A stretch of DNA of 64,000 nt from Litorilituus sediminis (GTDB taxonomy: Bacteria > Pseudomonadota > Gammaproteobacteria > Enterobacterales > Alteromonadaceae): positions 2,542,001 to 2,606,000 of the forward strand of contig NZ_CP034759.1 in NCBI RefSeq assembly GCF_004295665.1, read 5' to 3'. Below, one piece after another: positions 38,141 to 41,504 of the stretch. The position numbers were made by a program, and so were the translations under genes. The notes under the pieces were generated by a model. The model saw nothing but the letters and a program-made list of their open reading frames with translations. It was not told the DNA's origin and did no database searches. How positions within the stretch are numbered: the first letter of the stretch is position 1; every line of letters begins with the position of its first letter.

Positions 38141-39544
38141 ATGAGTGCTTTTTCTCAACAAACAACAATAGCCGCACAAGCTACAGCGCCAGGACGTGGT
38201 GGTGTAGGTATTATTCGCGTATCAGGCCCAGAAGCCAAAAATGTAGCGCAAGCGATACTTGGAAAAGTACCAGAGGTTAGAAAAGCAGAATATCTACCAT
38301 TTTATGATCAAAATCAGCAAGTGTTAGATCAGGGAATAGCACTTTACTTTAAGGCTCCTAATTCTTTTACTGGTGAAGATGTGGTTGAATTTCAAGGTCA
38401 TGGTGGCCCAGTTATACTGGATATGCTGCTCAAAGCCATCTTAACGCTACCCAAAGTACAAATGGCAAAACCGGGTGAGTTTAGCGAACAAGCTTTTTTA
38501 AATGACAAGCTAGATCTCACCCAAGCAGAAGCAATAGCCGATCTTATCAACTCAAGCTCAGAGCAAGCGGCTCGCTCTGCCCTGCACTCACTACAAGGTG
38601 ACTTTTCAAAACTAGTTCACCAAATGGTAGATAGCATTATACATCTAAGAATGTATGTTGAAGCGGCCATAGATTTTCCCGAAGAAGAAATTGACTTTTT
38701 AGCAGATAAAAAAGTGGTTAGCGACCTAAAAGCCATTATCGAGCAGGTCGCTAATGTACGTAAACAAGCACAGCAAGGCAGTATCATTCGTGAAGGTATG
38801 CGAGTAGTTATTGCTGGTAAACCCAACGCCGGTAAATCAAGCTTGCTTAATGCGCTGAGCGGTAAAGAAAGTGCCATAGTTACCGATATTGCAGGTACTA
38901 CGCGCGATGTACTAGCTGAGCAAATTCATATTGATGGTATGCCACTACATATTATAGATACTGCAGGACTAAGAGAGAGTGATGATACCGTTGAGCAAAT
39001 AGGCATAGAGCGCGCATGGCAAGAGATCAATCAAGCTGATCGAGTACTGTTAATGGTAGATGCCAGCCAAAAACACACCGTACTTGAAGATGAGCAAGAT
39101 ATTAAAGATTTCTACCCAGAGTTTTTTGCCAAACTCCCAGAAAATATCGGTTTAACACTGATTCGCAATAAAGCCGATATCAGCAAGATGACAACGGGAT
39201 TAGATGAGTTTACCGACCAAGCCCAACAAACCCATACCGTAGTCACCTTGTCAGCAAAAACGGGCAGTGGCGTAGAGAGTCTTAAAGAACACTTAAAGGC
39301 CATCATGGGCTATCAAGGCGGTACTGAAGGTGGTTTTATGGCGAGAAGACGCCATTTAGTCGCCTTAGATAACGCCTATCAGCACCTGCTAACAGGTTTA
39401 GAGCAGCTTGAATCTTACATTGCTGGTGAGATCCTTGCGGAAGAACTACGCCTTTGCCAACAAGAATTAGATCAAATAACAGGTGAATTCACTAGTGATG
39501 ATCTACTAGGTAAGATCTTTACCTCATTTTGTATTGGTAAATAA
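38141..39544 (+). CDS. mnmE: tRNA-modifying GTPase MnmE
   Basis: 467 residues. The N-terminal folate-binding TrmE domain opens [21 protein letters not shown]. The G domain has GKPNAGKSS (about 226-234), the TTRD switch, DTAG and NKAD. The C-terminal C-I-G-K, with the catalytic cysteine, is intact at the last four residues. With MnmG it makes the cmnm5U34 modification. The last 16 bp of the gene (39529-39544) are the left direct repeat of an inserted island, so the insertion restored the stop codon exactly. Confidence 0.97.
39529..39544 (+). repeat. Left direct repeat (attL-like) of mnmE island
   Basis: TTGTATTGGTAAATAA, the final bases of mnmE including its stop. Identical to 40923-40938. 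It resembles the attachment site reported for SGI1-type islands at the 3' end of mnmE/trmE (CTGTATTGGTAAGTAA, from memory), differing at two of 16 bases. Confidence 0.9.
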
Positions 39545-39649
39545 ACTAGTAAAAAAATTGACTCTCAACCAGTCTGGTTTCTTACAAAAGAGGCATTTAA
39601 AGAAGAGCTAAATATCTAAACAAAAAAGCAACTATTGATTTAATCAAAA

Positions 39650-39755
39650 TGAAAAAGGCTGCCATAAGGCAGCCTTCTCAAGATACTTTGCTGCTTGCAG
39701 CCCTACAAACCTGCTATTAGAGGTGGTTTATAAGTTATCACTACAAGCGCTTACG
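39650..39755 (-). ncRNA. Predicted structured small RNA divergent from the Abi-like gene
   Basis: Inferred from a promoter (39762-39790) and an intrinsic terminator facing the same way, giving an RNA of about 105 nt with no plausible ORF. In transcript order the foldable segments are CTACGTAAGCGCTTGTAG (~39756-39739), ACCTCTAATAGCAGGT (~39726-39711), GCTGCAAGCAGC (~39701-39690), then the terminator stem GGCTGCC-TTAT-GGCAGCC with TTTTT (39674-39652). Some Abi-like (AbiF-type) toxins are known to be associated with a non-coding RNA. Whether this RNA belongs to that class is conjecture. Confidence 0.55.
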
Positions 39756-39761
39756 TAGTAA

Positions 39762-39790
39762 ATTTTGGCCAATTACAACATTTTTGTCAA
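39762..39790 (-). promoter_or_regulatory. Promoter of the predicted small RNA
   Basis: Minus strand: perfect -35 TTGACA (39790-39785), 17-bp spacer, -10 CAAAAT (39767-39762). It lies 45 bp upstream of the Abi-like start codon on the opposite strand, so transcription of the two could interfere. Confidence 0.6.
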
Positions 39791-39834
39791 CTGTTATTTT
39801 TATTTTGTGGTAGTGTTGAACACATAGTTTTCTA

Positions 39835-40860
39835 ATGGATGTGAAAAATAAATTGAGACCAAATGACCTAGCCATTGTTTTTGATTCCTTGTCTCAGCCA
39901 AGAATTAATGCATATAAACGTTACTTTGGGAGTCACTTATCTGATGATGAGGTTTATAACTGCTATTTATGGAACGACGCAATAAGTAAGGCATTATTTA
40001 ATGTCATAACTCAAATCGAAATTACTTTACGAAACAGGACGCATGTAAGTCTAAGTAGTCAATTGTATCATTCACAAAAAAGAGTTGTGACTCGTTGCAG
40101 TGGCAACCCAAGAAATTGGAATACTTCAAATACAAATACGATAGGTACAACATCCTCATGCAACTGGTATGAAGCAGGATTACTTGAAAATAAGTCGCTT
40201 TCTAAAATACATACCACTACTCACCATTATCGCAGTAAGACTCCCCTGCAAGGAAGGGTAAGACCCTCTCCCGATGATGTAGTATCAAGTCTACATTTTG
40301 GTTTCTGGTCATCCCTTATTGATAAAAACCCTCTTGTTCAATGGGGTAACGTACTAGCTCATATATTCCCAAAACACAGAGCCTCAAACAGTAACCAATG
40401 GAATGTCGCAACCCAGCAGAAAAGATTGACATATCGTTTAGAACTGGTAAGAGATATTCGCAACAGGATAGCTCACCATGAACCCCTATGGAAGACACCA
40501 AAAATATTAGATGAAACTCCACCTGCACAAGGCTCCAATAGAGCAGTGTTACATCCACCAAGCTCAACCCCTACTGAAAGTATCCAACGTTTGAGAATCA
40601 TATATTCTAAAATAACAGAGTTGTTGAGATGGATGTCACAGGAACTTTACGATGACTTGGTGGCTTCAGCAACTCACACTCATTTCCTCTGGTTATGCTC
40701 AACACGTGGGCTAGATTTCTACATAAAACACCACGAAATAGCGAGTAGTCATATTAAAAGCTGTAAATTCAAGCGAGAATTAGGCTCCATAATAAAGATG
40801 AAAAAGAGCGTGTTTCTGGTTCATGGTAAGAGAAGTATATCAGCACTGCACCCGATTTAG
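39835..40860 (+). CDS. Abi-like (Abi_2 family) protein with HEPN RNase motif
   Basis: 341 residues. The segments SLHFGFWSSLIDKN (~152-165), WGNVLAHIFP (~170-179) and RDIRNRIAHHEPLW (~206-219) match the layout of Abi_2/AbiD/AbiF-type abortive-infection proteins. RNRIAH (209-214) fits the HEPN nuclease motif R-x4-6-H. These proteins are thought to act as RNases that halt growth on phage infection; that role here is inference. No signal peptide or membrane segment. The ATG lacks a visible Shine-Dalgarno site, so expression may be low or controlled. It is the only protein gene of the mnmE island and diverges from the predicted small RNA. Confidence 0.75.
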   Translation: MDVKNKLRPNDLAIVFDSLSQPRINAYKRYFGSHLSDDEVYNCYLWNDAISKALFNVITQIEITLRNRTHVSLSSQLYHSQKRVVTRCSGNPRNWNTSNTNTIGTTSSCNWYEAGLLENKSLSKIHTTTHHYRSKTPLQGRVRPSPDDVVSSLHFGFWSSLIDKNPLVQWGNVLAHIFPKHRASNSNQWNVATQQKRLTYRLELVRDIRNRIAHHEPLWKTPKILDETPPAQGSNRAVLHPPSSTPTESIQRLRIIYSKITELLRWMSQELYDDLVASATHTHFLWLCSTRGLDFYIKHHEIASSHIKSCKFKRELGSIIKMKKSVFLVHGKRSISALHPI

Positions 40861-40922
40861 TTTACTTACACTATAGCGCCTTCACTCCAATTAGAAAAAG
40901 ATAAACACTTTGTTTTTATTTA

Positions 40923-40938
40923 TTGTATTGGTAAATAA
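40923..40938 (+). repeat. Right direct repeat (attR-like) of mnmE island
   Basis: TTGTATTGGTAAATAA, exact copy of the mnmE end at 39529-39544. The preceding base differs, so the duplication is exactly 16 bp on the left side. Confidence 0.9.
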
Positions 40939-40962
40939 TTCAGCTCAAGCTTGTTCCATAAC

Positions 40963-40992
40963 AAAAATAGCCTACCTTTAGGCTATTTTTAT
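40963..40992. terminator. Bidirectional terminator, probably native to mnmE
   Basis: AAAAATAGCC / GGCTATTTTT stem with an 8-nt loop. It is separated from mnmE by the island but would lie about 24 bp after the mnmE stop if the island were removed. Confidence 0.85.
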
Positions 40993-41045
40993 ATCGGCCA
41001 TTAAATACTACAATAACGCTTCTATTTCCCCATTTAGGAGCCATT

Positions 41046-41504
41046 ATGAGTTCATTTCAAATAATTGTTGGCAGTATGTTAGGCGGTACAGAATATGTCG
41101 CTGAAGCCTGCGAAGAAACATTAGAATCCCTTAATCAACAGGTAGCTTTACACCTAAAACCTAACTTTTCTGACATAGTCTCTGCTACTAATTCGAGCGA
41201 AAATCCAGTTTGGCTTATCTGTACCTCAACTCATGGTGCCGGTGACTACCCTGACAATTTTATCGACTTTGCTCGTGATCTTGAAAATTGTGATCAAGAT
41301 CTATCCACAGTACGCTTTTTAACGATCGGTGTTGGTGATTCTAGCTATGATACTTTCTGCCAGGCAGCAAAAAACATATCAAAGCTATTAAAATCAAAAG
41401 GTTCTAAAGAAATAGTAGATTTATACACCCTAGATATGTCTCAAGAAATAGATCCAGAAGAGCTTAGCCAAGCGTGGATAAGACAACATAGCGATCTGTA
41501 TTAG
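41046..41504 (+). CDS. mioC: Flavodoxin-like protein MioC
   Basis: 152 residues, a single flavodoxin domain. The FMN phosphate loop is GSMLGGTEYVAE (about 8-19), with further flavin contacts in TSTHGAGDYPDN (about 60-71) and GVGDSSYDTFC (about 99-109). MioC is linked to biotin synthase electron supply. Transcription runs toward the origin as in E. coli, where mioC transcription influences oriC. A near-consensus DnaA box (41473-41481) lies inside its 3' end. Confidence 0.93.
   Translation: MSSFQIIVGSMLGGTEYVAEACEETLESLNQQVALHLKPNFSDIVSATNSSENPVWLICTSTHGAGDYPDNFIDFARDLENCDQDLSTVRFLTIGVGDSSYDTFCQAAKNISKLLKSKGSKEIVDLYTLDMSQEIDPEELSQAWIRQHSDLY

Follow-up and report, generated by a model that had tools for sequence, protein, structure and literature searches.

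In a 64,000-nucleotide stretch of the Litorilituus sediminis genome (contig NZ_CP034759.1, positions 2,542,001 to 2,606,000; hereafter the window, with positions counted from its first letter), a 1394-bp unit bounded by two exact copies of a 16-bp sequence lies at the 3' end of mnmE. It holds abi, a gene for an Abi_2/PD-T4-5-like HEPN protein, together with a conserved structured RNA on the opposite strand, just upstream of abi. We consider it probable that this unit is an island resembling the cis-mobilizable elements (CIMEs) and that its cargo, a relative of AbiF-AbiFr, pairs a HEPN RNase with an RNA antitoxin encoded by an independent gene on the opposite strand. The island itself, first reported by a sequence-only reading of the window, is real: it is a minimal, integrase-less, CIME-like unit at an SGI1-type site, and its most interesting part is the RNA gene.

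An integrase-less island at the 3' end of mnmE

The island and its immediate surroundings comprise the following features:

38141..39544, plus strand: mnmE, intact, 467 aa (open reading frame (ORF); Pfam MnmE_helical and TrmE_N)
39529..39544, plus strand: left direct repeat (attL core), the last 16 bp of mnmE (repeat search; shuffles)
39545..40922, no strand assigned: island interior (joined-end analysis)
40923..40938, plus strand: right direct repeat (attR core), an exact 16/16 copy (repeat search; shuffles)
40963..40990, plus strand: terminator-like hairpin just beyond the right repeat (inverted repeat I6)
41046..41504, plus strand: right-hand neighbor, a flavodoxin gene (Pfam Flavodoxin_1) that we take, from its position, to be mioC

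The repeat, TTGTATTGGTAAATAA, has exact copies at 39529-39544, where it forms the final mnmE codons including the stop, and at 40923-40938; these two are the only exact copies in the 4,275,717-bp genome, with single-mismatch matches at four other places. A chance repeat in AT-rich DNA is ruled out by 2000 dinucleotide shuffles of the 1501-bp mnmE-mioC interval (39545-41045): none reproduced 16 bp of the mnmE end, and 13 bp was the most that any of them did. The sequence-only reading had described an exact 16-bp repeat around an insert that spares mnmE and its stop, a terminator just outside the right repeat and site-specific insertion at an SGI1-type mnmE site. The repeat search and the ORF and Pfam data bear out the first, the hairpin at 40963-40990 the second, and the third agrees with the SGI1 attB, given in the accessible portion of its description as the last 18 bp of thdF (= mnmE) (PMC2297512). 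That hairpin is probably the native mnmE terminator, now displaced to the 3' side of the island. Inside the repeats, a single complete ORF has a family match (39835-40860, Abi_2; shorter ORFs lay outside the family search), and no transfer genes are found among the island ORFs.

When the right and left ends of the island are joined, giving TTTATTTAT-TGTATTG-GTAAATAAA, eight of nine arm positions are complementary, as against only two of nine in the empty site rebuilt around the mnmE core; symmetry as good as 8/9 occurs at a fraction of 2.3e-4 of shuffled island positions. Symmetric arms around a 7-bp center are how crossover sites of tyrosine recombinases are built. When 394 genomes of the order were screened with a pattern for the mnmE 3' end, at least 12 pairs of cores on one contig within 30 kb emerged. 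With G364 left out, its second core lying 29 kb off beyond mioC and mnmG, and G259 and G191 added through their integrase, the census stands at no fewer than 13 other repeat-bounded islands, a lower bound because right cores that deviate from the pattern, the window's own among them, are missed. These islands span 4.5-29 kb, their first core is the mnmE end in 13/13, and in all 13 the joined arms are more symmetric than the empty ones (5-8/9 versus 3-6/9).

The integrase family associated with this site (P0001, E<=1e-30) was found in 10 of the 394 genomes, in each case starting within ~220 nt of the mnmE core. It is seemingly complete in seven (G045, G160, G399, G378, G342, G259 and G191), split or altered in two (G073 and G226) and cut to 96 residues in G091; a 36-residue remnant lies beside the mnmE core of G044. 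No such integrase or remnant was detected in the window island or in the islands of G422 and G379 (best tblastn E 0.27-0.78), and the window's best match, at E 0.27, falls within the abi ORF, so that a remnant inside the island was rejected. Unrelated integrase families were covered inside the island through seven integrases of the same genome. The genome has 10 PF00589 matches, none of the mnmE-island family, and at E<=1e-30 that family is missing from it and from its 38 congeners in searches that did not use the SGI1 Int as a query. Across these 39 genus genomes, the best P0001 match (E 8.3e-12) covers 60 residues of an IntI-like protein in the window's own genome, and 37 of the 39 have a match at E<=0.001, as tyrosine recombinases would give. 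The cognate mnmE-family integrase is therefore missing from the genome and from the genus sample; the proposal that the island lacks its own integrase holds, and the accompanying suggestion to look for a matching one elsewhere in the genome yielded no candidate of that family. We propose that a tyrosine recombinase acting from elsewhere would have placed this integrase-less, att-bounded unit at the mnmE 3' end, and might likewise excise it in trans.

Several observations on the comparison set stand apart from this. The two other mnmE islands in which no integrase was detected come from a single genus and have cargo of a defence type: HipA and a TOTE primase-helicase in G422, and in G379 a SIR2 protein of DSR2-like kind next to one resembling NTPases. 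Three islands of a single genus (L137 in G044, L135 in G091 and L136 in G160) have a common right-hand cargo, including a 1030-aa protein that is RND-pump-like by eye, and across them the integrase is complete in G160, 96 residues long in G091 and 36 in G044, catching its decay in steps. The window's genome also has two integrases that appear integron-like by eye (L007 and L008; G000:C1:473455-477051 and 742178-745786).

The mnmE-mioC interval is complete in 30 of the 38 genus relatives, cut by a contig end in three and outside the comparison in five. In none of the 30 does the interval contain a further copy (<=3 mismatches) of that relative's 16-bp mnmE end; the island is absent in the relatives examined, and an ancestral insert is rejected. 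Twenty of these intervals are plain gaps of 190-828 bp, and 10 of 1.2-11 kb contain other genes. The latter (L117-L126), which lack a second core, make the gap look like a general insertion hotspot; by eye, L119 has a pair of methylase-like genes there and L117 a pair resembling RHH/RelE. In L117, a cassette array 3' of mnmE was considered and rejected, as just one two-copy 39-nt repeat is present. The right-end pattern has no other exact copy in the 39 genus genomes, and a search of the island DNA against plasmid records gave nothing useful.

That the unit is instead the last, immobile remnant of a larger, decayed mnmE island is a serious contender, to which we give a little less than an even chance. 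Decay at this site is seen in the integrase pieces of 96 (G091) and 36 (G044) residues beside the mnmE core; the left end and cargo of the G044 island are shared with longer islands; and the origin of CIMEs by decay has been described, as far as the accessible text goes (PMC5704250). Directly after the left repeat, moreover, the mnmE frame stays open for 24 codons (39545-39619), possibly the end of a gene since lost. Set against this are the lack of any integrase remnant in the window, and the identical repeats and 8/9 joined symmetry, which make the island site look functional; furthermore, the 24-residue peptide has no convincing tblastn match among the extracted loci. An integron-type cassette, or a repeat arisen by chance, is highly improbable: the integron-like appearance of the two integrases noted above, and the seemingly cassette-like context of an abi relative in Vibrio fujianensis (L228), whose upstream region looks similar to the Vibrio integron cassette repeat, would suit the former, but the repeat is the mnmE core of the other islands and the shuffles exclude chance.

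A structured RNA encoded opposite abi

The cargo is laid out as follows:

39652..39679, minus strand: terminator-like hairpin and T-run closing the RNA gene (scan; comparable hairpin place in relatives)
39686..39757, minus strand: structured RNA core, GTAAGCGCTTG..., with P1 bearing one bulged base, P2 and P3 (R1 match, fold, z-score)
39762..39790, minus strand: sigma-70-like promoter (TTGACA-17-CAAAAT) in a position to serve the RNA gene (scan and position)
39835..40860, plus strand: Abi_2/PD-T4-5-like HEPN protein, 341 aa (Pfam PF07751, PADLOC PD-T4-5, homolog alignment)
40459..40476, plus strand: HEPN RNase motif R209-N210-x-x-x-H214 (alignments)

The abi product matches Pfam Abi_2 (PF07751; E 1.1e-12, 49 bits against a cut-off of 25.6) and, over residues 14-226 only, the PADLOC PD-T4-5 model (E 6.4e-23, 79.5 bits). 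Homologs occur in 532 of 72,556 plasmid records, 435 of them over at least 80% of the query, and the best is 39% identical over 98%. The three residues R209, N210 and H214 of the HEPN motif, as this motif is defined in the accessible portion of PMC12373285, are invariant in both alignments (9 and 16 sequences). Most aligned homologs begin at residue 7 of the window's protein, so that its codon, the TTG at 39853, is a candidate for the true start. Searches with the Abi protein alone found no relatives in viral contigs or genome contigs, and a search of solved structures by its sequence gave nothing useful. The single defence-like cargo perceived by the sequence-only reading is defence-like, but it is not a single gene, since a conserved structured RNA gene accompanies abi.

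This RNA, of ~105 nt (39652-39757, minus strand), is recognized by R1, a covariance model built from 11 sequences with the window excluded; in the window, R1 has one match only, at 39686-39757 on the minus strand. Across a search set of 98 loci (0.94 Mb), all gathered through abi-homolog searches, it gives 19 matches in 18 loci, and the RNA is on the strand opposite abi in 19/19. Seven of the 18 loci lie outside the model (L205, L214, L215, L216, L219, L225 and the window's own copy, L047). Read on the strand opposite abi, the homologs have a common layout: a -10-like box (by eye) and GTAAGCRC precede a long-range stem whose 3' side carries a single bulged base; an asymmetric loop leads to the second stem, and the third, capped by a small loop, is followed by GCAA and the terminator. 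A set of 19 cores cut out by such reading includes 13 of 69-72 nt, five of 44-51 nt and one longer, and the 11 model cores and that of the window adopt much the same fold when folded alone. With its terminator, the window RNA has a fold z-score of -5.4, and without it one of -3.0. On the alignment fitted to the model, both sides change in 16 of 20 pairs, the covariation score is 0.618 against 0.275 in shuffles, and 89.9% of cells are paired against 71.6%; sliding the partners destroys the signal.

The position of the RNA bears on its identity as a gene. Seventeen of the 19 matches are within 80 nt of abi, and that of L225 overlaps the start of the abi frame; in L205, L214 and L215 the RNA lies ~50-80 nt past the abi stop, and it is therefore not just a 5' leader and appears to be a gene of its own. 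By script, a strong hairpin was found upstream of abi in the window and in 6/8 plasmid or phage homologs, with L207 added by later reading and none in L202. In three of these loci (L203, L204 and the window), the T-run of the hairpin clearly belongs to the opposite strand from abi. The upstream hairpin of L205, in which the T-run is reversed, belongs to something else, because the L205 RNA is downstream. A second RNA copy in L216 (8161-8244, minus strand; E 6.1e-8), ~1.2 kb past abi with no adjoining abi-profile match, is possibly a solitary antitoxin-like RNA.

By eye, six relatives of the PD-T4-5 clade (L237, L243, L049, L251, L252 and L245) also have an opposite-strand RNA with the GTAAGC motif, an extra 5' hairpin, promoter-like boxes and a terminator; the two of these that were scanned score 103-111 bits to PD-T4-5. 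A C4 antisense RNA near abi in L243, L251 and L049 hints at P4-like elements.

From its sequence, the RNA is absent from the Rfam listing: nothing exceeds the gathering score at the RNA in any of the 18 loci, nor is there an Rfam match at the opposite-strand RNA in the six loci of the PD-T4-5 clade. Sub-threshold overlaps comprise Trp_leader in L203, Ysr49 and Atu_C8 in L220, and Phe_leader, ctRNA_p42d and MicX in the window. The known abiF RNA (RF03085) was considered and rejected: the window yields none even at a limit of E 5, the relatives none at the gathering score, and five of these relatives none when the limit is relaxed to E 10.

Two other roles for the RNA can be set against that of an antitoxin binding the protein. 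It might be an antisense regulator of the type I-like kind, pairing with the abi mRNA and not with the protein, which we regard as unlikely. It is encoded opposite abi, the 19 cut-out stretches begin 10-84 nt from the abi start codon, and an abi mRNA starting within the RNA gene would be complementary to it; yet what is conserved is the fold, kept up by compensatory changes on both sides that antisense pairing does not need, and the RNA lies beyond the abi stop in L205, L214 and L215. Less likely still is a small RNA that targets phage or host and travels with abi without controlling it: the second L216 copy would fit such a role, whereas 18 of the 19 R1 matches, in loci that were chosen for abi, either overlap the abi frame or are no more than 80 nt away from the gene.

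The proposed RNA-HEPN module

The working model for this module comes from AbiF. In Clostridioides difficile, RCd22, upstream of abiF, neutralizes AbiF by direct RNA-protein interaction (PMC12373285), and a review presents AbiFr as forming a complex with AbiF and inhibiting its RNase (PMC12737573), as stated in the accessible portions of both. By analogy, we propose the same role for the opposite-strand RNA, which would be transcribed from its own promoter, bind the Abi protein and keep it inactive, as AbiFr/RCd22 does with AbiF. Phage infection may upset the balance between RNA and Abi, upon which the freed Abi would cleave RNA and growth would stop.

Several results weigh against this reading as a whole. 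At the level of the signals, the promoter scan recovers three sites where 5.4 are expected from the shuffled region, and one terminator where 1.0 is expected; since such sites are no commoner than in shuffles, the signals rest on their position and on the relatives, in which -10-like boxes are seen at the same place by eye. The same scan found no promoter of abi's own upstream of it. As for the RNA, the window score is modest (23.1 bits, E 0.0012), and the best folds of L201 and L211 differ once flanks and terminator are included. On a MAFFT alignment not fitted to R1, both sides change in 15 of 20 pairs and four of five measures go beyond the shuffles, but the structure was derived from that same alignment, and the fifth measure, further pair types, falls within the shuffles (161/500).

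The distribution is likewise uneven. Among homolog loci at or above 190 on the A1 profile, R1 matches 17 of 25 and not the other eight; of these, L206, L220, L221 and L223 have a similar or shorter RNA by eye, L208 has a hairpin only, L222 is unread, and in L202 (a Vibrio tapetis plasmid) and L228 no RNA is seen by eye or by R1. The model also misses 12 of 14 viral-contig loci and all six loci of the PD-T4-5 clade, and its weak matches in L308 and L309 (E 0.16 and 0.05) are ~1 kb from abi and on the same strand. R1 gave no match over 197 whole genomes, including that of the window, which carries the RNA, so that this search was blind. Concerning the island, the gap without it would be 107 bp, below all 20 plain gaps of the relatives, and its parent element was not found when the left 290 bp were compared with the 394 genomes (besides the sequence itself, 27 matches, all short, of which 17 cover the terminator).

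If an RNA-antitoxin/HEPN-RNase module is nevertheless what the island carries, it has consequences for how such genes are studied. Proteobacterial Abi_2 genes such as PD-T4-5 are currently annotated as single genes; if many of them need a partner RNA, cloning the ORF only would misjudge both toxicity and defence. The island further illustrates how little DNA may move such a module, namely two att cores, one RNA and one ORF.

Comparison with known systems

The island has its target in common with the SGI1/MGIVchHai6-type islands (PMC2297512), and like SGI1 it is inserted at the mnmE/thdF 3' end between direct repeats. It differs in having a 16-bp core, in lacking an integrase of its own, and in its size of 1.4 kb as against the 42.4 kb given for SGI1 in the accessible text. 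Related islands at trmE, yicC or dusA are described, in the portion available, as having phage-resistance cargo (PMC7449626). CIMEs are defined, again from accessible text, by the retention of attL and attR in the absence of integration and transfer genes (PMC5704250). The present island keeps both att sites and has lost those genes, and its mobilization is putative; it is smaller than the 13 other islands examined, and one module is its sole cargo.

For the protein, the closest described counterpart is PD-T4-5, an anti-phage gene of Escherichia coli, whose PADLOC model it matches over residues 14-226 only. In the accessible text, PD-T4-5 is plasmid-borne, a distant relative of AbiF/D and an Abi defence (PMC9519451); there, the phrase 'noncoding RNA' is absent and no mention of an RNA is found. 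Similarly, the accessible parts of the open-access literature that we searched describe neither a partner RNA for PD-T4-5 nor Abi_2 RNAs encoded on the opposite strand. The likeness to the type III toxin-antitoxin systems AbiF-AbiFr and AbiFCd-RCd22 consists in an Abi_2 HEPN protein with R-N-x3-H and an adjoining structured RNA with promoter and terminator, as far as their accessible descriptions go (PMC12373285; PMC12737573). In contrast to these, the RNA here is on the opposite strand (19/19), lies upstream or downstream of abi and not as a co-transcribed leader, and has no match to the Rfam abiF family RF03085. It is a testable cousin of the AbiF RNAs, the supposed source of Cas13 guides. 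We lean towards the view that the new RNA family and the proteobacterial PD-T4-5/Abi_2 HEPN proteins constitute an immune module with a free-standing opposite-strand RNA gene, small enough for a 1.4-kb att-bounded island, mobilized by integrases acting in trans, to carry nothing else. The module would then stand next to AbiF-AbiFr, from which Cas13 is proposed to descend, as a second branch with an arrangement of its own.

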